Shown here: positions 3,733 through 26,537 of the stretch, one piece after another
Layout of the letters: each line of letters opens with the position of its first letter
Numbering within the stretch: position 1 is the stretch's first letter
DNA from: a virus
Length of the DNA: 26,537 nt
Strand: one strand, 5' to 3'
Virus record (IMG/VR): IMGVR_UViG_3300031841_005302
Span: 1-26,537 of that record
Translations under genes and position numbers: made by a program
Notes under the pieces: generated by a model
Told to the model about the DNA's origin: nothing
What the model saw: the letters and a program-made list of their open reading frames with translations, nothing else
Database searches by the model: none

Positions 3733-3769
3733 TCAATTAAAGAACCAGTTTTTCAATTAAAGAACCAGT
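3733..3769 (-). repeat. 20-bp tandem duplication at the 3' end of the giant baseplate gene
   Basis: The 17-mer TCAATTAAAGAACCAGT (plus strand) occurs at 3733-3749 and again at 3753-3769, a 20-base period. The period is not a multiple of 3, so on the coding strand the second copy is read in another frame. The first copy encodes TGSLIE; the second gives LVL followed by the stop. With one copy removed the frame would read TGSLIETLTITP and stop at a TAA in the gap, which looks like the ancestral end. Confidence 0.85.
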
Positions 3770-6700
3770 ATCTCTTAAACCTTTACTCTTTCTTTGAATT
3801 TGAGGATATTCAGATAAATCAGCATCTGTAGTATTACCATTTACAGTATAACTTTCGTTCATACCATTAACAGTAATTTTACCCCAAGAGAATGTTCCAA
3901 TACTTCTCTCACTTGATGCTGATCCAACATTATCTTTGACATTTGCATTTGTAACAGGGAAATTAGAAGTATCTTCAGCATATCCATAGCAAGTTATCAA
4001 TCCAACCTTATTATTTACTACAGGTACTTCTACCACTCTATAAATTGCATCTATAAAAGTTCCTGCAATTGAAACTCTATTCTGACTGTTAACATTCAAA
4101 ACTGCATTATTTGTAGATATTCCAGCAGCATCTAATACGGGACCTTGAGTTCCAGTATAGTCATAAGTATAGAAATATGTTCCTGGTTCTACATTGGTAT
4201 TTGATATTGAAAGATAATCGCCTTGGGATAAAGTTCCATCACTAGAAGCATTAAATATGAGATTATTAACTCCAGTCTTTTGATTATTTAAATAATCTTC
4301 TCTAAGTTTAAATTCAAATTTATCAGTAAGTTGAGTTATAGTAATGAAAATATTGAATGATGTAGACTGATTAATCTGAGTATTAATCTCTAGAACATCA
4401 CCTACTTCATAACCAGTTCCCCGATTTATTACATTTATTTCACTAAAGTAGCGAGAACCTGATGGTCCCGCAATTGTAACCTCAATTTCCGCATCAGTTC
4501 CGCTACCAGTATATCCTGTAATTCCACCATTAGATTGACTGTATGTATAATTCAACACTGATGGATTGCTACCAGTAGGTCCAATTTGACTACATGTAAA
4601 ATCTGCAATTCCACCGTCAGGTACATGATTTATATGAGTTACAATACCACTAAATCCTTGAACACCCGTAACTTCTCCACTAAGATTAAATTTAGATTCG
4701 GGTAGAGGTGCAGTAACAATAGGAGTTGAATTTTCTGGATATCCAGTACCTTGTGTAAATCCACTAATACTGACGATAGTTCCGTCTGCACCTACTGTTG
4801 CAGTTGCTATTCCTGCAGTAGACTTTTGTGGTGGGAGAGCGAAATACTTTTCATTCGATCCATTATCTGGGACAAGTGCTCCACCTTTACCATCAACAGT
4901 ATCTGGCCAACCATCTCTAATCGTTGATGGTGGAACTGTGACAAGTAAATCAATGGTTCCAGATGTATTGGTATAACCTGCTCCAGGACTATTTACAGAA
5001 ATGCCTGATAAAGTATCACCAGTTAAAGTTACATTAAATGTTGCTGGAACAAATTCACTAGCATCATCTGCAGCAAGAATAGTCCAATCATATGTGGTTG
5101 GGTTTTCATAACGGAATATATCAACATTTTCAACATAGAATGTTACTGAACCTGTACTTGCCTGAACATTACTAATAATATTTGTCGTTGGATATACCTG
5201 AGATAATAGTGATCTTCTCGTTTTGAATACATAATCACCGCCAAGAATAAGATCTTTCTTTTGCTTACTCCAAGAAACAGGTCTATTTACATTACCAAAT
5301 TCGTGGTCGGCATTATATAAACCTTTTCCAGTATATGGAGATGTTTCTAGAACGTCAGATTGTGTATAATTAAAGACTCTCCTAGGATTCTGTTCATCGA
5401 TAGAATTAAACTGCTTGACTTGTACAATATCGCCTCTTTCTACAGTAGGAACAACAGACCCAACTTGCTCATCATCTACATTTCTAGTTCCTCTATAGAA
5501 AAATACTGCAACTTGATCATCAACTTTTGGTGGAACTGAGAATGTAAATGAGGCACCTCCACTGAAGAAATAATTTTCGCCAGGATTCTGCAGAACTCCA
5601 TTTACAAATACTATCAAAGCATTTTCAATGTCCATTCTAGATTCTTCAGCCACCTGGACACTGAATAGTTCTCCAAGATAGAATAATGGGAATCTTGTTC
5701 TAAATCCATCTTGATATGGTGTAATTGCGTCAATGAAATCAAGTTCACCAAATTGCCATGATGCAAAAGTATCGTTGTAAACATCAACTACTTCAAACTC
5801 AATTGGATTAATTGGTGAAGATAATCCCATAGCAGTTACTAATCCTACAGGAGTAAACTTATCGCCCTTTTTGAAAGAATATCCTGGTCTCTTTATACTA
5901 AATCCAGTAACATCGAATGCGGTAGAACCAACTCCTACCGTAGTTGATGCTGCGCCAACTTCAATATCCATCAAGAGACCTATACCTGTATCAGTTGTAG
6001 CACCAAGACCTACTCTTGAAGTTCCAACAACTTCGAGATTTTGATAAGAAGGTTCGGAAACAAATGCCTGTGGATAATCTGGATATTCACTTCCAGGATT
6101 ACTGATAGTGAATATTGCGGTTCCGCCTGCACCTACTGTTGCAGTAATGTTTGCAGCAGTTCCGGACGTGGTAGTTTCAATTGAAACGGTTGGATTGGTG
6201 AAATATCCAGACCCACCGAGTGGTTTTCTGTAACCAAAATTAATAGTTGTTGTTCCTGCGCCAGTTAAATTATTGTCGAGAATAACTCTATCTATTGCAA
6301 CCAATCTAACTGTATCTCCGCCATTAACATTTACAGTACTATCTAACGTAACTGTTGTTTCATCTGATGCGGTAAATGATGAAATACCAAGTTTGGAATC
6401 ATTTAGATAAACATCAAGGAATCCAACAGAATATGCAAGAGTAGCGCCATTGTCATCAGGACCACTAAAGGTAGTTTGATTGGCAGTTGCTGTATAGATA
6501 TTGGTAGGACCTACTGTTTGAACTTTTTGTCCATATGCAACATTGTCACTATTTTGTAATTCCATTCCGGTAGAGATTCCGGAAGTATTAATTCCTGTAA
6601 TTGTATTGCCACTAAATGTACCTTCCTTTGATACTGCAGTAACAAATTTTCCAACAACTAGACCGATACCTAAATCGGTGGATAATGGATTTGCCCAATT

Positions 6701-9700
6701 TGAAGGTAGGTGATGGTTAGTGATTAAATCAATCTCTGCACCCACAAGAGGTGCATATCCTTGACCACCAGAAGATCCAAGAGAAACAATAATTCCACCT
6801 CTAGGCACCTGATTTGCGTTCACATCTGTTTTAGATGATCCAACAACTCCACCTTCTCCAATATATCCAGTAAAACGAACACTTGAAATTCCTGCATCTT
6901 CAATTATTTCGAAGTTATTATTTGGATTATTGTCCGCTTCAGGTGTTTGATATATTCCATTTATCAGAACAATACCATTTCCGCCACTTGTTCCAATACC
7001 AACTTGATCATTACCATCAACAGTCAGAGAGAATGTTCTTCCTATTCCATTAAATTCATTGGATACATTATCATAAACTCTATTGGTAGAATAATCTTGT
7101 CTCAAGAAGACTCTGCCTGCAAATTCTGAAGTTTGGAATCTTAGGTTATTTTCAGTTCTTGTAACTGATGCATTGCCTTTTGGTGCATCAATGAAATGGA
7201 TTTCATCTCCAACAATATTATAAGAACCTTTAAATACATTGGCAGACGTATTGTCATTATGAGTTGCTTCAGTTGTTCCTAATATGCCTCTTTCGACTGA
7301 GACTAATTTGTGAGTGCCGCTTCCGGTTATTGGACCTATATTATGCTGTCCAAGACCAACTGAACGAATAAGCATAAATTCATCATCTACTTTAAGAATA
7401 TCAGAAACATTTACAGTTCCAATACCACTTAATGCAAATATTGGTGCTGTTGCGCTAATTCCACCACCATTTCCAGTTAGAGTGTGACTTATATTTGTAT
7501 ATGCTACAGGACTTTGAACCATACCATCAAGAGTGATGATTGCTTTACTCAAAGTTTCCTTCATCGCAAACTGATGAGCATTTCCAGAACCAGTATTATC
7601 ATAACCAGTTAATGGAGTTCCATTTTTAGTTAATGAAATTTTAAATGTATCAAATTCAAATTCGCCAACTACTGCATATACTGTTGTCGGTACGTCACTA
7701 CCACCATGTTCAATTGGTTCTGCAGGAACACCAGTGAATGTGGACTGAGGAGTATAGATTAACTCTTCACCATTACTAAAGAAATGATTTGGTACTGTAA
7801 ATACTCCTGTAACGGGATTAAAATTAGTAGTATTGCCCGGATCAATTGTTTTTGCAAAAATAGGTGTCTGCTCATTACGTAAAATAAAGTTCTTTTTGTT
7901 AATTCTCTCACCTTCGAGTGCAAGATATTGACTTGTTTTCAAACTTTCAATTACTGAACCATACTGCAAATCTGGTGCAGTATTAACAGTATCTAAATCG
8001 GTATAATAGCATTCTGCTAATACACTTATTTCTACATCGCCTGTACCAGCACCAAGTCTATCTGGATAGAACAGAATTTTGAAATCATTGCCATTCAACT
8101 CTGCACCAAAAGTTCCTATTCCAGTAGGATCGTCTATTGCATATAATGCAGGACCTTCTTGAGTATAGGTGTTTGTATTATCGTGAATAAATGTTACATC
8201 ATACAATATCGATCCAGTATACGCAGTAAACGCACCTGCATCAGTTTTAACCTCAAATATTCCAGAAGTTGCATCAAATAAATTTTTATCTAAAGAAAAT
8301 ACTTCAATTGGTCCAGTGGCATCAGTTACAGTTACATATTTTGATTGATAAGTCGAACTTCTCTCAAATGTTGCTGGTTGATTTGGTAAACTAAAACGAT
8401 ATGTATCTCCATTTAGAGTACTAGCATCAGAGCCAAATGCAATCGATCTTGCTCTTAATACAACAGTCTCAATTTCCTCGTTATTTTCATATTCAATTTT
8501 CAGATTCCCAGAATCATCAATTACTGATGTAAATATGCCAATTGGTTCTGCTGAACGATTAAATCCTGTCGAATCATAATAGTATTCGGCAATATTTGTA
8601 TTTGTACCATCGTGAGTTGCATATAATCTAACAAAATTAATTTTATCCGTAATTAATGTATTGAGGAAAATATCGGCAACAATAGAATTGTAATCCGTTT
8701 TTGCTACGTTAATTACTGTCCCAATACCTGCACCAGTTGTTACTCCTGTAACAGAACTCATTAAATCAACAAATCCGACAGAAGTTGTTGCGGTGCCTAA
8801 TGTGCTATCACCAAATCTCTTTTCGAGATATTTTATGTCATAATCTTTTCCGAATGGATCCTTAGGAGTAAATCTTAAATATGTTTCTTCAAATTCGGTT
8901 CTTACTAATTCAAAGTCACCATAAGATTCTCCTTCAATATGAGCAGAACCTACACCAACATTAACTAAAGTTTCTTGTTCATTGATATATGAATTTCCAT
9001 TTGGATGAGACAGAATTGACAATCTAGTTAACTGTACTTGCGTATTATCAAGGTCTCTAAGCTTAAATGTATAATTTCTATAATCTCTATTTGGATTGAT
9101 TTCAAGAACATTTTTATAAGTAAGAGGACTTGATTCAAATTGGGAGAATTGTGGGGAAATATCATCAACACTCAAAACAACATTTGTTTTTGCCTTTGTA
9201 TATGGAATAAATGTGGAATTTTCAAACTCTAAGAATTTTGATGTATTATCAACTACATCAATATCTTTTGTAAAATCGAAATTGTGTACAGTATCGACTC
9301 TTTGTTCCCCTATTATATCTAAGAAAACATCAAGATCTGTATTTGCTGTGGAGATGCCACTAACAATTTCTCCATCTGTCATTATTTCACTATCTGCAAA
9401 ATTTTTCATTCCAGATACATGTGCCAGTCTATTGATTGGAGACTTGATTTCTTCCCAAGTCATGGGACTTCTAACAGAATATGAAAGAGTCTGATAATAA
9501 TCATTATCAGGAAGAACCTGATAATCTTCACTCAATCTTCCAGTATTAGATTTCCATCCAAAAGACTTTTTATTTGAATAATTTACTTTATATCTTGCAT
9601 CAATTTTTTCAATCTTAGATACAAATGCAATATTACCTGATGTCTTACCAGTTATTTTTTGATCTACTAGTAGATCAAAAGAACCACTTATGTTTAGGTC

Positions 9701-12700
9701 AGTTGTATTCGAATGAGATTCGACTTTTAAATCTACTTCATTATTATCTACTAATAATTGTTCTCCTGGGAAGAACAATGATGGATTTGTGTTTACCTTA
9801 AATTGTGGATAATTCTTTTTAGAAACTATAGTACCCGAAGAATCTTGAATTGTCTTTGCAATTCCAGTATTTGAAGTATATTCGGATGCACTAATCTCTA
9901 CACGATCATTACTTTGAGACGTATCGTATCCAGTTACTTTAAAGAATCTATAACCAAGATCTGATGAATTGAATCCATCTCCGGATGTGCCAAATTTTTG
10001 AATTCCTTCAATAAAGACTTCATCTCCAACATTGAGTCGAGAATCTGGTGAAAATCCTATTAAAGGAGTACTTAAAACACATGTAAAAATTCCAGTATTA
10101 TTTGATTCGACTTTTAAAATACTAATTCCATTTGAATTATTTTCAACAAAAAGTTCTGCATCAGAACTAACTCCATATGGAGTATCTAAAACATTGACAG
10201 ACGTTATGGATTCTGCAGTAACATTTAATTCAATATTTCCACCAGTAATTTTTTGTCTAGTATTAAAATCGACAAGAACTGGAGATGGAGTTTCAATATA
10301 ATTTTTACCACCATCTACTAGTTCAATAGATCTAACAATATTCGAATTTCTTAGTGTTACTTTAGGTGCTATGAATGCATTTGGTGTTAAAGTCTTATCG
10401 GAAGAATATTCAAAACCAACATTCAAAATATCAACATCATTAATTTTACCAATATTATTTGAAGTTGGAATTACCTCAAATCCCTGCCCACTCTTAGAAG
10501 AAATATCTGAAATTAGTGGAAGTTTATTATAATTTTGTCCTGGAGATATGACATCGATATTTTTAATTTTTCCAAAAGCAGTAGAAGAAGTTGTATCATA
10601 TTTTAAATGCGTACAATCTGCTTTCAAATATCCATCCTTTTCACTTTCTTTTTCTAAAGAAATTGTAAATGTTGTATCAGCAGTAGATCCAATGCCAGAA
10701 ACTGTATGTGTTCCAGTATAGTTACTATCTACATATAAAATTTCATTATAATTAATAATATCTTTATCTGCTGTGTTTACACCTACTCCAGAAGAACTTT
10801 CTAAGTTATAATATAATTTTTCTGGGAAGTTTTCGGAATAATTAATTGTTAATGTTGCAGTAGATGTAACTCCTACAGTTCCTGTTCCAACAACATTAAA
10901 TACCGAAGTGGTACCTATGGATATAAATTCATTATTAAACTCTTTATCATAGTAAATTTTGAAATTATTTCCCGAAAGTGATGTATCAGAAAGATCGAAT
11001 ACAACATTATTCCCTTTAGTAATTTCAATTTGTGGATTTACTAATGTCCAAATGTGACCATAAGTTCCAACCAGAAGAGTATCAATATTAGATGAATCTG
11101 ATATTGATACTCTAGTTTTACCAATAACAGATGGTCTGAAAACATCATCGTAAGTTTCACTTATGGTAAAATTAGTGTCAGTAAGAACTCTGACATAAAA
11201 TGCAGTATTTTGCATTTCTGGATCATTGGGATTATTACCACCATGATATAATCCAGATCCATATCTAAGAGTTTCACCATCTGTACGAGAATATATTACT
11301 TTATCCCCATTTTTAAAATTGTGTTTTTGTGGAGAAGTAGTGAATACCCATGGTTTATAGTTATATGCTACTAATGGCGAATCTAATACTGCAGAATCGA
11401 CAGTGTTTATACCAATAGTAAGATTTTGATTTCTTATGACATTAACAATTGTAGAAGTTCCGATGCCAACATTCAGATTAGGCTCTACCTGCAATTTAAT
11501 AGTATCGCCATTTGTAAGACCATGAGATGTTGATACAGAAACGGTTGCGGTTATTTTGTTAATATCTGCGGTTTCTTTCTCATTAGCATGAGTCAGTAAA
11601 TACTCATCACTATCGCTACCGTTTCCTATGAAATAGACTGGACCACTTTTCCTACTTAAAACTACATTTGTAGTTACAGTAGTGGGAGGAAAACTCTGAA
11701 TATTCTTATCAAGACGAAAATGTGTATCATTAATAATTTCTGTAATAAATGCAGTTTTGCCAAAATCTTCTGCAAAAACGTGTCCTGGATCTTGAATGGT
11801 AATTTCATCTCCAACTCGAATTCCTGTAGATTCTGCTAAAGAAAACTCTACAATATCATAATTTGAGCTATCTAAAAATCCTGCCGAACGAGTTTGAGTA
11901 ACATCAGTAAATAAATGAGTTTTGATACCCACTGTATTTGGTGATTCGTTGATGATGTAATATTCGCCCTGGTCATCAAAATTATAACTTTCCCCATAAC
12001 TATTTTGAATAGAAATACCACCACCACCATTGAGTGTTAGAGTTACTTTATCATTCGTTGAGAATTTATGCCCTTCCAGATAAATTCTACCCATTGGAAT
12101 TGATCTGGATACGGACCCAGACCCAAAGTCAAAAGTTACATCATGAGTGTCTCCAAAAGTAGTTCCAATTCCAACAGAGTTATTTGGATTAAAATAAATT
12201 TTTTCATCTAACTCAGAATCAAAATAATCAAATTTTTCTTGGATTGTGAAACTATAATTTTTAGCAGTAACTGCAGTTCCTACACTATGTTGTAGTGCAT
12301 CATTACCTCTCTTCACTCTCAGTACATTTTTATTTGGGAATATATTGAGAACTTCTAGTGTTTCATCATTAATCAATATTTCATTTCCAATACGAATCGA
12401 TTCTGATATATTTGAAACATATATTTCTGTAGTAGCAGAACCTGTCTGTATAGTGTCTTCTAGACGAAGAATGACCGGACTATCAACTGATACTCTTTTA
12501 TATGAATTATCCAGTTTAAGTGTAGATGGTGATGGAATTATTGAAGAAATTCCAGAAATTGAAACATAATCCCCAGAAGAAAGTCCATGTGGGGTATTAG
12601 TAAACACTCTAACATTATTGGGATCTTCCCAAACAAGTTTTGCTTGTGGGAAAGAAGTTATATTTTGCTGAATAGATTGAATTTCCTTTCCTTCAATGAG

Positions 12701-15700
12701 AGATACTTCTGCATTCGCTCCTCCACCATTTGTATTTTTTTCGTCAAATACTAAAGCATCTTTAATTTGATACTTTTGCCCTCCATCTATTATCTCTATA
12801 GAAGAAATACTACCACTAGTAATAGACTCTACTTTTATTCTTTGGTCGGCAATTTCATTTGTTTCTATAATATAATCATTATTTGCATTTAACTCTGAAA
12901 CTTTATGTGGGAAAGTATTCCTCAATAATCCAGAGTTATTAACATCAAAATCTTGGTTTAATGTCTTATTCTCCTCTAAGAGATTTGTTCTATAGGAATT
13001 TCCAATAAAATATGGGAAATATGGTTTTAAGAAGACATCTAATGTTGCATGATATGCATAAGTTCCGTTTGGAAATTCTGCAGTTTTTGCAAATCTTCCG
13101 TTATTCTCATCCAAATCACCATTTCCATCGAATATGTAATCTTGAGTAAAAAATCCTAAGGGGAATTTTGTTTCAGATGGTCTATCAGGTATGTTAGATA
13201 TACTTAGATTGTATCCAGATATTAATCTCTTTGTACTTGAAGTCAATACTTTTGGATCTGAAGGTCCAAATGGTCCATAAATTGGATTACCATCATATGC
13301 CCATCCAATAATTCCCGAATTTTTATTTTCATGATCTCCAAATATTTCTCTTAATTTATCATAATATCCAGAAACAGAGTAATCTAAACCATTTCTAAAT
13401 TTATTTTCTCTAAAGACTTCATATTGCTTTTCTTCTATTTTGTTTACATTATTAATATTTAAAGATCTAACATTTGAATCAAACAGGACACCACTGCCAC
13501 TATTTGTGATTTCTATCCTACTATTATTAGAATAACCCCTACCAGCATTTTCAATTATTACTTTGGTAATTTTACCATCGGTTGAAACTGCTCTTAATTT
13601 TGCACCAGTTCCAGAATTCGTTGGATCGAATAATGTTAAATCTGGAGGAGAAAAATAGTCATATCCTTGGAATTGGATATTAGTATCAACTAACAGTCCA
13701 GATGATATAATTGGATCTATCTGAGCTTTCTGTCCCTCAATTACTTTGATATTAGGTGTTTTTTCAAAGTTGATAACATCGGAACCATATCCAGTTCCGT
13801 TTTCATATAGATATGCATCAACAATAGAACCTTTAACGACAGGTGTTAATTCTACAGATTGAATTTGAGATGTTGATCCAATACCAGCACTAACAAAATC
13901 AATAGTTGCTACAACATCTGGATACTTAAAATATTGATATCCAGATCCTTTAGATACAAACTGTACATATCTTTTTTCTTCAAAATTACTAGTTATTGTT
14001 CCACCAATTCCTGCATCACAAATTCTAAATGAATCAGAATCTTCTTTTAAAATCAAATAACTTTTTTCTGTGGAAAGGCCAACATTATCACTAATTCCAA
14101 TCGCAGAAGTTTCAAAACGATAATCTATCAAATCTCCCGTTTCAAAATTATGATTTTTAAAATTAATAGTATTATTAAAAGTATTAATTCCAACAGGTTT
14201 AACGATTAATTTTCTATTTGTAAGTTTTGCCGGTTCTAAAATTTTAATTTCACTTAGAGTATTAATTATTTCTCCAGATACAAACTTTTGAATTCCTCCA
14301 TATCCATATCCGGGAGAATCTGCTCCAAATTTAATTGGATTCGTATTATTTGTATAATCATCAAAATTATCAAAAAGTTTTACAGTAATATTGTTATCAA
14401 CTCTTACAAAATATGTTGAATTGTTTATGAGTGTTGCGTCATTAATATTATTACCATCAGTGTCAATTCCAACGTTACCACTTGATGTTTCATTTCTATA
14501 TACTATTTCTTGCCCATTGACAAAATTATGATCTTCAATAAAGGATAATTGATTTGTTGATGTGCTAATACCACCACCCTGTGTAGTAGGTCTTGCATCA
14601 AATAAATGCTCTGTTCTTTTTTTGACAAGAACGGCTTCATATGATCCACCACTAACATTTCCTCCAGTAATATTGACACCAGTAACACTTTTTATATTAA
14701 AATTTGATGTAGAAGAATCTACAATAATTTCTTTAAGTTCTCCTGAAATAACAGGTTGGACCTTTGCATCAGATCCATTCGAAGGACTTGCTGTTGATAT
14801 TTTCGGTGAATTTAATACATCATAATTACTCCCACCAATAAGTACAGAAACATTTGTTAATGGTCCATAATATATTTTTTCGTCTGTTTTATAATTACTT
14901 ATCTCGACGCCATTTATTAATACACCAGTTTCTCCTGGAGTAGTTTCTTCTCTGGTCCCAGATTTTAAATTTGGATTTAAACTAAACTTTTTAAATGCTT
15001 TTTTTGGTTTTATTAAATTTGTTTTATGTTCAAACAAAGTAAATGTATGAGTACCAATACCAGAAGTTGGCTCACGCATCTTAAGGCTAGGTGTATCAGA
15101 TGCAATATGCGATCTTGATGTATATAACTTTAATTTCTTTCTATCATCTTCTTGTCCAGGATTTGATATGACTTCAACATAATAAGATCCTGTAGATAAA
15201 CCAATAATCGGATCAGTTTCTGGTTCATAAAATATTCTATCACCAGATAAAAATTTCACTTTATCTTTTAATTTTATCGTAGTAAATTCTTGTACTCCAG
15301 TAGAATTTACAGTATCTTCATCAATATCTTGAAGGGGATTAATAACTGTAGGATCTAATTGATACCTATAAATTTCCTGTTCAATATCAGAAACAAAAGG
15401 AACTGAAGGAACGACTCCTTCATCATTTTCTGGCATAGTATAAGTTTCGGACTCTTCAAAACTACTTGATGGTAATGAATTCGAAGCAACATATGCGTAA
15501 GAATTTCCATCAGTATAGATGTTTTGAATGTCTGAAATTATATTATGATTTCCATATTCAATTGGAACATACTTACTAAATGCTTTATTGACCCTTCTTC
15601 GTATTGAGTAAAGTTTATTTGGGTCTGGATTGTAAATAAAATTGCCCAGTGTTAATGTCCTATCCAGTCCATCATCATCGGGTTGAATATTTAAAATAAA

Positions 15701-17191
15701 AGGAATGTCGGTATCTACTAATGGATATACTACATCATATGAAGCTTTATCAATTATTTCAATCCTATCGCCAACTTTAAATTGAGATTTGTCAATACTG
15801 GTTTTAAGTCTTATATCTGCACCAAATTCTTCGATGTCAACTGTTGGTGCGGTATTATAAATCCAAGAATTTGCAAAAATTTCTTTTTTTGACTTTTTGA
15901 TTGGATTTGTTATGTAATCTCCAATATTTTTAACAGTTAAAATTTGATTTTTAGAAATTGGAATTGATCCATCATCTTCATAATCGTCAATATCGGATAT
16001 AACACCGGTTATTCTAAATTCGCATTTTTTGGATGTGTCTCCATTTTCATATCCATAGTAAATTTTATCAGATCTAATATTATCAGTTTTATTAATTGTA
16101 TTTTCTATTCCACTACAACCTAAAAACTGATTATAGTTTTTTTCTGTATATGTTATGACATTATTGCCAGAATATATGGTACCACTAGGATCAAATCCAT
16201 TTGTAGAGTCTACCGTAATAACTGAAGATCCTGGAAGAACTTTATCCTGAGATTTGGTTGCAGGAGTAATTTCAAATGTTCCCTCAATAGCACTCTTATC
16301 ATCATGCCCAACATATAGATTTAATTTATAATAAAGAATTCCTCTTCTAGTAAAAGGCTCTACCTCAGATACAACAGCTCTGGTCTCACTATCAGTATTT
16401 TTTACGACTGTTTGACCTTTTAACTTCGATAAATCTCCACTAACTGCTTCTACAATTAGCACTTCTCTTCTGGTAAAAGAAGCATCTGATGGTTTAATAA
16501 GATATTGTTCTAGATTTATCGTTTTACCTGATTTTCCAAATAAAATTCTTAAAAGAGTTTTTATAGAATCATCAGTTCCCTTTGATGCATAAAAAGATTT
16601 TATCTCTTTTATAAAATTGCCTACATTCAAATTATCAGTTAATTTTCTTCCTTGAAAATCATTTGCAAAAGTAAATTTTGCCTTTTCAAAAAATTCTTTT
16701 AAAAATAAAGTACTTAAATTTTCTATAGATGCATCACTATTATGAGAAGATGCTAATGTACTATTAAATACAATTTCTTCTTTATCAAGAATATTGTGAT
16801 AATTTGTAATACCACTAAATCCACGAATACATCCTGTAAAAGAATTTGTAGTTATTCCTGTATATGAAATAATTTCATCATCAATTTTAATTAACCCATA
16901 TTCTTGTGGAAATCCTTTCGTACTAGTAACATTAATTGTTTTGTCACCAACTGTAGTAATACCCACTGTAGTAGAACTATCTACTATGACTTCTGGTACC
17001 AGATTATCTAATTTTAAATATTGGTCTAAATTATCCGATAAGTCTGTAGGACCACCCTGATATTCTTGAGAGACATAATATGTTTTTAAAAAGTCAATAA
17101 ATTTCGGATTCTCATCCGAAATAAATGATGGTACTTGATTGGAAACAATATCTTGAATCTTTACTCTAGATTCAATCCCAGTCGTTATCAT
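3737..17191 (-). CDS. Giant gp7-like baseplate wedge / virion structural protein with YHYH domain
   Basis: 4484 residues in one uninterrupted frame between gp6 and gp8, where T4 has gp7 (1032 residues). Residues about 160-290 resemble the C-terminal part of T4 gp7: FYASKGTDDSIKTLLRILFG (near 198-217; T4 has FYSTKGIEASYKFLFKVLY) followed by a GQTVV segment like T4 GQTIY. A YHYH domain lies at about 1290-1400, with GWAYDGNPIYGPFG (W at 1297) and YAYHAT (H at 1381). The remainder is long beta-rich repeats with recurring GxGY motifs, VGIGT-type turns and, after about 3200, FVNGVLQNP-type repeats common in tail fibres. ATG follows the gp6 stop by one base, with AGAGAG upstream. Role: wedge scaffold as for gp7, with the extra repeats probably exposed at the baseplate rim (inference). 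Cyanomyoviruses often carry a very large ORF here. The C-terminal tail is altered by a 20-bp duplication. Confidence 0.85.
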   Translation of the reverse strand: MITTGIESRVKIQDIVSNQVPSFISDENPKFIDFLKTYYVSQEYQGGPTDLSDNLDQYLKLDNLVPEVIVDSSTTVGITTVGDKTINVTSTKGFPQEYGLIKIDDEIISYTGITTNSFTGCIRGFSGITNYHNILDKEEIVFNSTLASSHNSDASIENLSTLFLKEFFEKAKFTFANDFQGRKLTDNLNVGNFIKEIKSFYASKGTDDSIKTLLRILFGKSGKTINLEQYLIKPSDASFTRREVLIVEAVSGDLSKLKGQTVVKNTDSETRAVVSEVEPFTRRGILYYKLNLYVGHDDKSAIEGTFEITPATKSQDKVLPGSSVITVDSTNGFDPSGTIYSGNNVITYTEKNYNQFLGCSGIENTINKTDNIRSDKIYYGYENGDTSKKCEFRITGVISDIDDYEDDGSIPISKNQILTVKNIGDYITNPIKKSKKEIFANSWIYNTAPTVDIEEFGADIRLKTSIDKSQFKVGDRIEIIDKASYDVVYPLVDTDIPFILNIQPDDDGLDRTLTLGNFIYNPDPNKLYSIRRRVNKAFSKYVPIEYGNHNIISDIQNIYTDGNSYAYVASNSLPSSSFEESETYTMPENDEGVVPSVPFVSDIEQEIYRYQLDPTVINPLQDIDEDTVNSTGVQEFTTIKLKDKVKFLSGDRIFYEPETDPIIGLSTGSYYVEVISNPGQEDDRKKLKLYTSRSHIASDTPSLKMREPTSGIGTHTFTLFEHKTNLIKPKKAFKKFSLNPNLKSGTREETTPGETGVLINGVEISNYKTDEKIYYGPLTNVSVLIGGSNYDVLNSPKISTASPSNGSDAKVQPVISGELKEIIVDSSTSNFNIKSVTGVNITGGNVSGGSYEAVLVKKRTEHLFDARPTTQGGGISTSTNQLSFIEDHNFVNGQEIVYRNETSSGNVGIDTDGNNINDATLINNSTYFVRVDNNITVKLFDNFDDYTNNTNPIKFGADSPGYGYGGIQKFVSGEIINTLSEIKILEPAKLTNRKLIVKPVGINTFNNTINFKNHNFETGDLIDYRFETSAIGISDNVGLSTEKSYLILKEDSDSFRICDAGIGGTITSNFEEKRYVQFVSKGSGYQYFKYPDVVATIDFVSAGIGSTSQIQSVELTPVVKGSIVDAYLYENGTGYGSDVINFEKTPNIKVIEGQKAQIDPIISSGLLVDTNIQFQGYDYFSPPDLTLFDPTNSGTGAKLRAVSTDGKITKVIIENAGRGYSNNSRIEITNSGSGVLFDSNVRSLNINNVNKIEEKQYEVFRENKFRNGLDYSVSGYYDKLREIFGDHENKNSGIIGWAYDGNPIYGPFGPSDPKVLTSSTKRLISGYNLSISNIPDRPSETKFPLGFFTQDYIFDGNGDLDENNGRFAKTAEFPNGTYAYHATLDVFLKPYFPYFIGNSYRTNLLEENKTLNQDFDVNNSGLLRNTFPHKVSELNANNDYIIETNEIADQRIKVESITSGSISSIEIIDGGQKYQIKDALVFDEKNTNGGGANAEVSLIEGKEIQSIQQNITSFPQAKLVWEDPNNVRVFTNTPHGLSSGDYVSISGISSIIPSPSTLKLDNSYKRVSVDSPVILRLEDTIQTGSATTEIYVSNISESIRIGNEILINDETLEVLNIFPNKNVLRVKRGNDALQHSVGTAVTAKNYSFTIQEKFDYFDSELDEKIYFNPNNSVGIGTTFGDTHDVTFDFGSGSVSRSIPMGRIYLEGHKFSTNDKVTLTLNGGGGISIQNSYGESYNFDDQGEYYIINESPNTVGIKTHLFTDVTQTRSAGFLDSSNYDIVEFSLAESTGIRVGDEITIQDPGHVFAEDFGKTAFITEIINDTHFRLDKNIQSFPPTTVTTNVVLSRKSGPVYFIGNGSDSDEYLLTHANEKETADINKITATVSVSTSHGLTNGDTIKLQVEPNLNVGIGTSTIVNVIRNQNLTIGINTVDSAVLDSPLVAYNYKPWVFTTSPQKHNFKNGDKVIYSRTDGETLRYGSGLYHGGNNPNDPEMQNTAFYVRVLTDTNFTISETYDDVFRPSVIGKTRVSISDSSNIDTLLVGTYGHIWTLVNPQIEITKGNNVVFDLSDTSLSGNNFKIYYDKEFNNEFISIGTTSVFNVVGTGTVGVTSTATLTINYSENFPEKLYYNLESSSGVGVNTADKDIINYNEILYVDSNYTGTHTVSGIGSTADTTFTISLEKESEKDGYLKADCTHLKYDTTSSTAFGKIKNIDVISPGQNYNKLPLISDISSKSGQGFEVIPTSNNIGKINDVDILNVGFEYSSDKTLTPNAFIAPKVTLRNSNIVRSIELVDGGKNYIETPSPVLVDFNTRQKITGGNIELNVTAESITSVNVLDTPYGVSSDAELFVENNSNGISILKVESNNTGIFTCVLSTPLIGFSPDSRLNVGDEVFIEGIQKFGTSGDGFNSSDLGYRFFKVTGYDTSQSNDRVEISASEYTSNTGIAKTIQDSSGTIVSKKNYPQFKVNTNPSLFFPGEQLLVDNNEVDLKVESHSNTTDLNISGSFDLLVDQKITGKTSGNIAFVSKIEKIDARYKVNYSNKKSFGWKSNTGRLSEDYQVLPDNDYYQTLSYSVRSPMTWEEIKSPINRLAHVSGMKNFADSEIMTDGEIVSGISTANTDLDVFLDIIGEQRVDTVHNFDFTKDIDVVDNTSKFLEFENSTFIPYTKAKTNVVLSVDDISPQFSQFESSPLTYKNVLEINPNRDYRNYTFKLRDLDNTQVQLTRLSILSHPNGNSYINEQETLVNVGVGSAHIEGESYGDFELVRTEFEETYLRFTPKDPFGKDYDIKYLEKRFGDSTLGTATTSVGFVDLMSSVTGVTTGAGIGTVINVAKTDYNSIVADIFLNTLITDKINFVRLYATHDGTNTNIAEYYYDSTGFNRSAEPIGIFTSVIDDSGNLKIEYENNEEIETVVLRARSIAFGSDASTLNGDTYRFSLPNQPATFERSSTYQSKYVTVTDATGPIEVFSLDKNLFDATSGIFEVKTDAGAFTAYTGSILYDVTFIHDNTNTYTQEGPALYAIDDPTGIGTFGAELNGNDFKILFYPDRLGAGTGDVEISVLAECYYTDLDTVNTAPDLQYGSVIESLKTSQYLALEGERINKKNFILRNEQTPIFAKTIDPGNTTNFNPVTGVFTVPNHFFSNGEELIYTPQSTFTGVPAEPIEHGGSDVPTTVYAVVGEFEFDTFKISLTKNGTPLTGYDNTGSGNAHQFAMKETLSKAIITLDGMVQSPVAYTNISHTLTGNGGGISATAPIFALSGIGTVNVSDILKVDDEFMLIRSVGLGQHNIGPITGSGTHKLVSVERGILGTTEATHNDNTSANVFKGSYNIVGDEIHFIDAPKGNASVTRTENNLRFQTSEFAGRVFLRQDYSTNRVYDNVSNEFNGIGRTFSLTVDGNDQVGIGTSGGNGIVLINGIYQTPEADNNPNNNFEIIEDAGISSVRFTGYIGEGGVVGSSKTDVNANQVPRGGIIVSLGSSGGQGYAPLVGAEIDLITNHHLPSNWANPLSTDLGIGLVVGKFVTAVSKEGTFSGNTITGINTSGISTGMELQNSDNVAYGQKVQTVGPTNIYTATANQTTFSGPDDNGATLAYSVGFLDVYLNDSKLGISSFTASDETTVTLDSTVNVNGGDTVRLVAIDRVILDNNLTGAGTTTINFGYRKPLGGSGYFTNPTVSIETTTSGTAANITATVGAGGTAIFTISNPGSEYPDYPQAFVSEPSYQNLEVVGTSRVGLGATTDTGIGLLMDIEVGAASTTVGVGSTAFDVTGFSIKRPGYSFKKGDKFTPVGLVTAMGLSSPINPIEFEVVDVYNDTFASWQFGELDFIDAITPYQDGFRTRFPLFYLGELFSVQVAEESRMDIENALIVFVNGVLQNPGENYFFSGGASFTFSVPPKVDDQVAVFFYRGTRNVDDEQVGSVVPTVERGDIVQVKQFNSIDEQNPRRVFNYTQSDVLETSPYTGKGLYNADHEFGNVNRPVSWSKQKKDLILGGDYVFKTRRSLLSQVYPTTNIISNVQASTGSVTFYVENVDIFRYENPTTYDWTILAADDASEFVPATFNVTLTGDTLSGISVNSPGAGYTNTSGTIDLLVTVPPSTIRDGWPDTVDGKGGALVPDNGSNEKYFALPPQKSTAGIATATVGADGTIVSISGFTQGTGYPENSTPIVTAPLPESKFNLSGEVTGVQGFSGIVTHINHVPDGGIADFTCSQIGPTGSNPSVLNYTYSQSNGGITGYTGSGTDAEIEVTIAGPSGSRYFSEINVINRGTGYEVGDVLEINTQINQSTSFNIFITITQLTDKFEFKLREDYLNNQKTGVNNLIFNASSDGTLSQGDYLSISNTNVEPGTYFYTYDYTGTQGPVLDAAGISTNNAVLNVNSQNRVSIAGTFIDAIYRVVEVPVVNNKVGLITCYGYAEDTSNFPVTNANVKDNVGSASSERSIGTFSWGKITVNGMNESYTVNGNTTDADLSEYPQIQRKSKGLRDTGSLIEKLVL

Positions 17192-19576: not shown

Positions 19577-19584
19577 TATTTATA
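19577..19584 (-). promoter_or_regulatory. T4-type late promoter for the baseplate operon
   Basis: TATAAATA on the minus strand, an exact match to the T4 late -10 octamer. Its downstream end lies 22 bases before the gp25 ATG, leaving a leader of roughly 17 bases. It sits in the 43-base gap between the 79-residue gene and gp25 and faces gp25, gp6, the giant gene, gp8 and the DUF4815 gene. T4-like late promoters need the phage sigma gp55 and the gp33/gp45 system; neither is in this window. Confidence 0.75.
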
Positions 19585-25475: not shown

Positions 25476-25505
25476 GTGAATCTCGTGTGATGTGTGCTTA
25501 TTATA

Positions 25506-25712
25506 TCATGCATAATGACGATATGCAAGCGCATCATAATCACATGAATCTCGTGCATAATCATCGTCATCATGATACTCGTAACCTTCATGCATATCTC
25601 GTGATTGCATATGATTATTATGCATATGATAATGATTCTCGCACATCTCGTCGAGATCATATGCATAAAACTCGTTGTTAAATGAATAGTCGATCTCGTA
25701 GTCGTCGTACAT
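25506..25712 (-). CDS. Asp/Tyr/His/Met-rich small protein (68 aa)
   Basis: 68 residues from ATG 25712 (MYDDYEIDYSFNNEFYAYDL). The middle is rich in His and Met (HYHMHNNHMQ), followed by YEYHDDDDYARD and the C terminus DYDALAYRHYA. The extension to 25772 uses a TTG start and is less likely. The composition could bind metal, but low-complexity repeats in the DNA (CATATG and ATCTCGT units) partly dictate it. The clean DYARD-DYDALAYRHYA end resembles, to my recollection, short cyanophage proteins. A TATAAATA octamer stands 89 bases upstream. Coding status is probable but not certain. Confidence 0.6.
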   Translation of the reverse strand: MYDDYEIDYSFNNEFYAYDLDEMCENHYHMHNNHMQSRDMHEGYEYHDDDDYARDSCDYDALAYRHYA

Positions 25713-25800
25713 AGTTCTCGTAGAGATTGTGTATGATACTGATATTATACTGATGTCTCGTCGAGATGTCAAGTGATAATCTCGTAAGACTCATAACGAT

Positions 25801-25808
25801 TATTTATA
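25801..25808 (-). promoter_or_regulatory. Late promoter octamer facing the 68-aa gene
   Basis: TATAAATA on the minus strand, an exact T4-type late octamer, overlapping the palindrome TATACATGTATA (25805-25816). It faces the Asp/Tyr/His-rich gene. The region is AT-rich, so chance is possible. Confidence 0.5.
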
Positions 25809-25868
25809 CATGTATACATGATCTCGAAGAAATGTTACGGTCTGCTAATTTTTTCGCGTCCCTGGGGG

Positions 25869-25897
25869 TTGACAGACCCGCGTTCGTGTGCTAACGT
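25869..25897 (+). promoter_or_regulatory. Candidate sigma70-type promoter reading into the 22-bp repeats
   Basis: Plus strand TTGACA (25869-25874, perfect -35), 17 bases, TAACGT (25892-25897, three of six for -10). The start would fall near 25904, just before the first repeat, giving an RNA that begins with the Shine-Dalgarno repeats and could reach the GIY-YIG gene. Confidence 0.4.
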
Positions 25898-25908
25898 CCT
25901 AAACTCAC

Positions 25909-26038
25909 AAGTCTCAGGAGGTATTAGAACAAGTCTCAGGAGGTATTAGAACAAGTCTCAGGAGGTATTAGAACAAGTCTCAGGAGGTATCTATGAGGTT
26001 ACTGTGAGGTATCTGAAGAGTATCTGTGGAGTATTATT
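25909..26038 (+). repeat. 22-bp Shine-Dalgarno repeats followed by 11-bp-phased repeats
   Basis: Four copies at 25909, 25931, 25953 and 25975, period 22. Each contains AGTCTCAGGAGGTAT, with a perfect AGGAGGT. Copies 1-3 are identical over the full unit; copy 4 diverges after GGAGGTAT. Imperfect GAGGTATCTGA-like units then follow at exactly 11-base steps (25984, 25995, 26006, 26017, 26028). Neither period is a multiple of 3, so this is not a protein repeat. After the fourth copy comes ATG and a 4-codon frame (25993-26007). Confidence 0.9.
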
Positions 26039-26078
26039 CTCAACAATTATTGCTATTGATTCTCATTAAAGGAAGGTT

Positions 26079-26086
26079 TATTTATA
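26079..26086 (-). promoter_or_regulatory. Late promoter octamer facing the 22-bp repeats
   Basis: TATAAATA on the minus strand, exact match to the late consensus. A leftward transcript from it would cross the repeat array antisense to the plus-strand candidate RNA and continue toward the 68-residue gene. Confidence 0.45.
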
Positions 26087-26110
26087 TTTAATTTTATATT
26101 AATCTAATGC

Positions 26111-26164
26111 ATTGTATGCAATCAAAAAAGAAATGCTTTCAATAAATAAAGTCAAGCATACAAT
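26111..26164 (+). promoter_or_regulatory. Hairpin ending two bases before the GIY-YIG start codon
   Basis: ATTGTATGC (26111-26119) pairs perfectly with GCATACAAT (26156-26164); the right arm ends one base before the ATG. A second option, ATGCTT (26133-26138) with AAGCAT (26154-26159), uses the same right arm. Either would bury the initiation region in transcripts that start upstream. The left arm is also a TGCAT-TGT-ATGCA palindrome (26108-26120). Confidence 0.6.
26141..26148 (+). promoter_or_regulatory. Late promoter box inside the hairpin loop
   Basis: AATAAATA on the plus strand, one base from the late consensus, lies in the loop of both hairpin options. A transcript from it would start near 26154, within the right arm, so it could not form the hairpin. 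Confidence 0.5.
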
Positions 26165-26165
26165 C

Positions 26166-26537
26166 ATGAACATGCAACTAGGAACAATATATCTCATCAT
26201 CAATAAAGTCAACGGACACAAATACGTCGGACAGACAACTCAAACCGTAAATAACAGATGGAAACAACATATTGATGAATCTAAGCGTATGAGTCCTGAT
26301 TCATTACATCGTGCCATGAGAAAATATGGTAATCACAACTTTATGATAAGAGAAATAGAAGAATGTGATATAAGTAAGTTAGATGAAAGAGAACAATATT
26401 TTATTAAAGAATACAATACAAATGTAGAAGGATATAATACTGATACTTGCGATTATCCTGAAGAAGATAATACTCCTATACCTATAATAGAAGAACCATT
26501 ACCATTAATTAATAATAATTGGGGGTTTCATTTAGAA
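26166..26537 (+). CDS. GIY-YIG homing endonuclease-like protein (partial, runs off the right edge)
   Basis: 124 codons from ATG 26166 with no stop before the edge. The N-terminal domain GTIYLIINKVNGHKYVGQTT (6-25) carries the GIY (TIY, 7-9) and YIG (YVG, 20-22) elements. R31 in NNRWKQH is the expected catalytic Arg, H35 follows, and E76 in LDEREQYFIKEYNT is the expected metal-binding Glu. After about residue 95 comes a Pro/Ile/Glu/Asn-rich linker (TPIPIIEEPLPLINNN), so a C-terminal DNA-binding part may lie beyond the edge. Very AT-rich, and on the strand opposite to all other genes, as expected for a mobile gene. Met-3 is another possible start; no Shine-Dalgarno is visible. It probably cuts related phage DNA at a specific site to spread itself. 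Confidence 0.87.
   Translation, partial: MNMQLGTIYLIINKVNGHKYVGQTTQTVNNRWKQHIDESKRMSPDSLHRAMRKYGNHNFMIREIEECDISKLDEREQYFIKEYNTNVEGYNTDTCDYPEEDNTPIPIIEEPLPLINNNWGFHLE

Follow-up and report, generated by a model that had tools for sequence, protein, structure and literature searches.

How should a row of perfect Shine-Dalgarno sequences be read when it lies behind a promoter in a phage genome: as RNA that binds many ribosomes, or as DNA with protein-binding sites on one face of the helix? The window in which this question arises is a whole 26.5-kb IMG/VR contig of a T4-like cyanophage. At 25907-25990 on its plus strand, Tandem Repeats Finder detects a period of 22 with 3.8 copies and a 100% match. 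The unit is ACAAGTCTCAGGAGGTATTAGA; full copies start at 25907, 25929 and 25951, and a fourth, of 18 nt, starts at 25973, all being identical. The original prediction of four 22-base repeats thus holds for the AGGAGGT motifs, which are four in number, tandem and identical (25916, 25938, 25960 and 25982; none elsewhere in the window), but the array consists of three full copies and one partial copy. The number of motifs is by itself unremarkable, with at least four found in 9 of 100 shuffles; it is their perfect tandem arrangement that exceeds chance. The five units expected to follow at exact 11-base steps are found on the plus strand at 25984-26038 (starts at 25984, 25995, 26006, 26017 and 26028), namely: GAGGTATCTAT, GAGGTTACTGT, GAGGTATCTGA, AGAGTATCTGT and GGAGTATTATT, in that order. 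The TTGACA promoter at 25869 and a 4-codon leader frame (ATG AGG TTA CTG TGA, at 25993) are likewise present in the sequence as predicted.

The small minus-strand gene at 25475-25317, encoding the protein MYTQARKRTVSVTLDIECYDDL... (PHROG 12516), was used as an anchor to locate the locus elsewhere, and 80 related IMG/VR loci were gathered with it. A second small minus-strand gene at 25506-25712 encodes an acidic, tyrosine-rich protein (MYDDY...LAYRHYA) and is a conserved neighbour, with tblastn matches in S-SKS1, S-SRM01 and S-T4. The locus has a fixed place in the genome. It lies upstream of the baseplate genes gp25-gp6, at a distance of about 6 kb in the window and of 4-11 kb in S-SKS1, S-SRM01, S-T4, S-SCSM1, DSL-LC03, P-SSM2, S-PM2 and Syn9, and in eight IMG/VR contigs the distance between the anchor gene and gp25 is 4.4-7.9 kb. 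Because the anchor gene was not found in P-SSM2, S-PM2 and Syn9, their loci were identified by position, promoter and DnaA boxes (near 19.2 kb in S-PM2 and near 52.6 kb in Syn9); that of DSL-LC03 was identified by its box cluster and position.

The promoter is a conserved element of the locus. In the window it is of the sigma-70 type (TTGACA-N17-TAACGT, 25869-25897, plus strand) and is antisense to the block of genes at its left. The related loci were searched for the pattern TTGAC(A/T/C)-N17-TANNN(T/C), and 73 of the 74 with enough sequence have it in a constant position and orientation, facing away from the anchor gene and 355-509 bp upstream of it; by estimate, chance alone would produce this pattern in about 1% of such stretches. 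The start of the presumed transcript, CTAAACTCACAAG at 25899-25911 (plus strand), is similar in most relatives, where it appears as GCTAAACTCACAAG, GCTTAGCTTGCATAAG and similar variants. In the named phages, the DNA behind the promoter carries genes on the opposite strand, so that the promoter faces against its surroundings, and neither in these phages nor in the related loci is any gene regularly placed behind it. The -35 element of the Syn9 promoter is weak.

Over the 140 bp behind the transcript start, the sequence differs widely between lineages, but an 11-bp period is kept. Across 61 related loci, the mean self-match at lag 11 is 0.38; dinucleotide shuffles give 0.29 (z 19.6), and pieces drawn at random from these loci give 0.27 (z 20.9). 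Further autocorrelation peaks are found at lags 22 and 33, and the signal is also present in 35 non-redundant loci. It is the recurrence of T, TT, G and AG that gives rise to the period. The five 11-bp units are therefore the conserved part of the window's array. Some lineages have a period of 20-21 or 10 bp in place of 11, S-CAM7 has a 9/18/27-bp array, and the S-PM2 and Syn9 loci have boxes and AT-rich DNA but no clearly evident array.

Several lineages carry DnaA boxes at the locus. There are three in each of 11 of the 71 IMG/VR loci, three at 21-bp steps in S-SKS1, seven in DSL-LC03, three in S-PM2 and a close pair in Syn9; in these four named phages, the cluster at the locus is the only one in the genome. 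Neighbouring pairs of TTWTCCACA within 60 bp, counted in five whole genomes, number seven in the locus and zero elsewhere, and none of 300 shuffled versions of the motif gives two pairs in the locus. Among loci of the S-SKS1 type, the array changes but the boxes behind it are retained. DnaA boxes are absent from the window itself, where their position is occupied by a TTGAGAA-type element (ATTATTCTCAACAATTATTGCTATTGATTCTCATT, 26028-26067). Besides the window, 41 of 71 relatives have sites of this type; DSL-LC03 carries both kinds of element, and 21 of the 71 loci have neither. By eye, the TTGAGAA element resembles Fur-family boxes in the window, in L113 (where it reads TGATAATGATTATCA), in L066 and in DSL-LC03 (80200-80260). 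A search of host genomes for one form of the element gave four matches, none of them cyanobacterial.

Downstream of the array, the stretch at 26034-26160 is 79% AT. Its part at 26032-26131 is among the least stable 0.5% of the contig's 100-bp windows and is a candidate DNA unwinding element; the corresponding stretches of ten phages fall within the least stable 0-6%.

The occurrence of a promoter, phased repeats, DnaA boxes and an easily melted element at a single syntenic position, where no gene regularly follows the promoter, is best explained by a replication origin. We consider it probable, from these comparisons, that the array is part of an origin of T4-like cyanophages (Kyanoviridae), similar in kind to T4 oriE and oriF, with a fixed place upstream of gp25-gp6. 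The DNA reading in the original prediction, i.e. helically phased sites as in origin iterons, is thus the one that the comparisons support, given an 11-bp period that persists over unrelated sequences and an origin-like locus that is syntenic. As for the mechanism, we infer that transcription, protein binding, R-loop formation and priming take place at the locus in the following manner. From the promoter at 25869-25897, host RNA polymerase would produce a short non-coding RNA, antisense to the genes around it, and this RNA would cross the helically phased ~11-bp units and enter the AT-rich stretch at 26032-26160. There, it would form or aid an RNA-DNA hybrid or open bubble that primes the phage replisome for leading-strand synthesis. 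As iterons, the phased units would offer an initiator or architectural protein a platform on one helix face. Opening of the duplex might be aided by host DnaA in the lineages with DnaA boxes, as the boxes themselves suggest, and by another protein in the TTGAGAA lineages, including the window. A more specific version of the origin reading, which we put forward tentatively, is that there is one conserved origin combining a T4-type RNA-primed start with host DnaA, in which lineages may exchange the initiator module, either DnaA boxes or the Fur-like TTGAGAA element, but retain the promoter, helical phasing and melting element. It should be noted that cumulative GC skew in five genomes is monotonic, with no turn at the locus, and gives no support for an origin there; T4-type recombination-dependent replication would blur such a signal.

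A regulatory role of the locus early in infection, without any part in replication, is unlikely but accounts for several of its features. Its divergent promoters and arrays would then form a switch, and the plus-strand RNA would act on the neighbouring genes as a non-coding or antisense RNA. Facing away from the plus promoter is a second sigma-70 promoter with a consensus sequence (TTGACA-N17-TATAAT, 25744-25772, minus strand) that would serve the small minus-strand genes; a CTCGACGAG palindrome lies inside its spacer, and S-SKS1 shows the same divergent arrangement. On the left side of the locus, ATCTCG/TCTCGT sites are clustered over 25480-25829 together with two palindromes, CTCGTCGAG, at 25647 and 25757; the cluster is interleaved with a small gene and overlaps the minus promoter. 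The genomes of S-SKS1 and S-T4, and the segment of P-SSM2, contain palindromes of the CTCGWCGAG type nowhere but at the locus; in S-SRM01 they are confined to 85-91 kb, and in S-CAM7 their place is taken by CTGCGCAG-like repeats. The sites and palindromes at 25480-25829 are probably bound by a phage DNA-binding protein. A T4-type late promoter motif, TATAAATA (TATTTATA at 26079), is found on the minus strand at 26079-26086 and, by its motif, would read back through the array. These features, together with a plus promoter that has no regularly placed gene behind it, would suit a switch. However, a switch leaves unexplained why clustered DnaA boxes and easily melted DNA are found at this locus only. 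Furthermore, an RNA acting on neighbouring genes would have to do so with an array of unconserved sequence and without a stable fold: the predicted fold of the presumed transcript is less stable than most shuffles (z +1.6), with nothing unusual about it, and an Rfam scan of the locus gives no match.

It is very unlikely that the locus is instead a packaging, partition or recombination site whose repeats bind terminase or a segregation protein. The clusters of palindromes and repeats are specific to the locus, and the injection stop signal of phage T5 does combine repeats with DnaA boxes (PMC13250531). On the other hand, such a site would not be expected to include a promoter or an AT-rich stretch. 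Moreover, packaging of the T4 type proceeds by headful, with no fixed site.

The gene that follows the locus in the window invites another explanation. A GIY-YIG homing endonuclease gene, cut off by the contig end, lies directly downstream at 26166-26537 on the plus strand (Pfam PF01541, E 7.8e-12; also assigned as a homing endonuclease by PHROG and supported by tblastn), and the promoter and repeats could be the 5′ leader or the target of this mobile gene. The gene is present in 31 of 68 related loci, and in S-CAM7, too, the array is followed by a start that resembles that of a GIY-YIG gene. In the other 37 loci it is absent, yet the promoter and the 11-bp array persist where it is missing, which makes a leader or homing feature highly improbable.

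There remains the possibility suggested by the AGGAGGT motifs themselves. Close comparison of the window with its nearest relatives, L051 and L055, shows that the promoter region and the 11-bp units match closely, whereas three extra 22-bp copies (66 bp) are absent from both. The 22-bp array is thus an expansion private to the window's phage. AGGAGGT occurs in 6 of the 71 related arrays and never twice in one array, and a Shine-Dalgarno sequence followed by a start is found in 11 of 61. The leader frame, proposed as part of the same RNA reading, recurs as such in the two closest relatives only. S-SKS1 has a perfect 22-bp array, with 4.7 copies of AGAAGGTTTATAAGAGTATTAG, that lacks AGGAGGT. Array length also varies between near-identical phages: two relatives, L077 and L078, are identical across the aligned region save for a 30-bp gap inside the array, and two S-CAM7 isolates (L007 and L008; 1226-1515) have 9/18/27-bp arrays of very different lengths in a similar place. 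Such variation in copy number, with no conserved AGGAGGT core, is an outcome that the original prediction itself named as refuting it. An IMG/VR search with the exact 22-mer gave no match, and three AGGAGGT at 22-bp steps are found there in five unrelated arrays, none of which lies in the window's locus context. Since AGGAGGT is rare among relatives, the S-SKS1 array lacks it and array lengths vary, the cluster is an expansion of local origin and does not represent a conserved ribosome-binding feature. The perfect copies are a recent tandem expansion for which no ribosome-related function is needed and, by the sequence comparisons, the AGGAGGT array arose by chance when a small repeat multiplied in one virus. 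A ribosome decoy or standby array, in which the four Shine-Dalgarno sequences behind the promoter and the 4-codon frame after the last of them would bind ribosomes as RNA, is accordingly extremely unlikely, and as a conserved function it is refuted by comparison of the relatives, given an unconserved AGGAGGT core, extra copies that are private to the window's contig, and an unremarkable RNA structure.

Returning to the origin reading, we compared the locus with known origins. According to a review (PMC3016281), the iterons of T4 oriE are 12 nt long and evenly spaced, and its promoter is of the early mode. The T4 record places oriE 1.7 kb upstream of gene 6 in minus-strand direction, opposite to gene 6; the primer RNA of oriE is complementary to gene 5, and the GIY-YIG gene segC lies between oriE and gene 6. 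T4 oriE and the cyanophage locus are therefore alike in having direct repeats, a promoter, an antisense direction, a place upstream of gene 6 and a GIY-YIG gene nearby. They differ in that the T4 repeats are 12 nt long, more widely spaced and inside gene 5, whereas the cyanophage locus is intergenic, with ~11-bp units and, in some lineages, DnaA boxes. The likeness is thus one of layout, not of sequence. The conserved small neighbouring protein that was compared, VTLD (alignment A1), shows no similarity to RepEA or RepEB, and a relationship to them is rejected.

The minimal T4 origin at oriF and oriG consists of a promoter and a downstream unwinding element, with a transcript that forms an R-loop and primes replication (PMC3016281). 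The cyanophage locus resembles oriF/ori(uvsY) and oriG/ori(34) in the order of promoter and AT-rich unwinding element and in the proposed use of a transcript as primer. Although oriF adjoins gene 25, it does so on the other side of that gene than the cyanophage locus; oriF and oriG also use MotA middle promoters, and iterons or DnaA boxes are not described for them. Of the features of a T4-type origin, the cyanophages have a promoter motif reading in (73 of 74 loci), the AT-rich stretch (ten phages) and 11-bp repeats (the IMG/VR set). A different parallel is offered by plasmid iteron origins such as R6K gamma, in which helically phased direct repeats lie beside AT-rich DNA and DnaA boxes. The cyanophage locus shares the phased repeats beside AT-rich DNA and, in some lineages, the boxes, but its unit sequence is not conserved, a strong promoter reads through the repeats and a cognate Rep gene is not identified.

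T4-like cyanophages count among the ocean's most abundant phages, and to our knowledge no replication start site has been pinned down in them. Among open-access papers on cyanophage origins, or on iterons and DnaA boxes in cyanophages of the T4 type, we found none that describes the locus. One review (PMC2984593) states that Syn9 is predicted to have a single theta origin, but does not say where; as far as this literature shows, this is the only such prediction. A syntenic candidate origin in S-PM2, Syn9 and P-SSM2, which are all laboratory phages, makes the question of the start site directly answerable. The array also illustrates how the helical period of an origin may persist through changes of its sequence. 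T4-type phages have no need for DnaA that we know of, nor do we know of any T4-family origin using host DnaA; if some of these lineages do use it, this would be new.

Three further observations concern the surroundings of the locus. In T4, segC and segE lie near oriE and oriF, and a GIY-YIG gene likewise lies by the locus in about half of the relatives. Besides the site at 26079-26086, minus-strand TATAAATA motifs are found within the locus at 25801-25808 and just upstream of gp25 at 19577-19584. Finally, downstream of gp6, the minus strand carries a single 4484-aa open reading frame (3737-17191), whose product is probably a giant structural protein.
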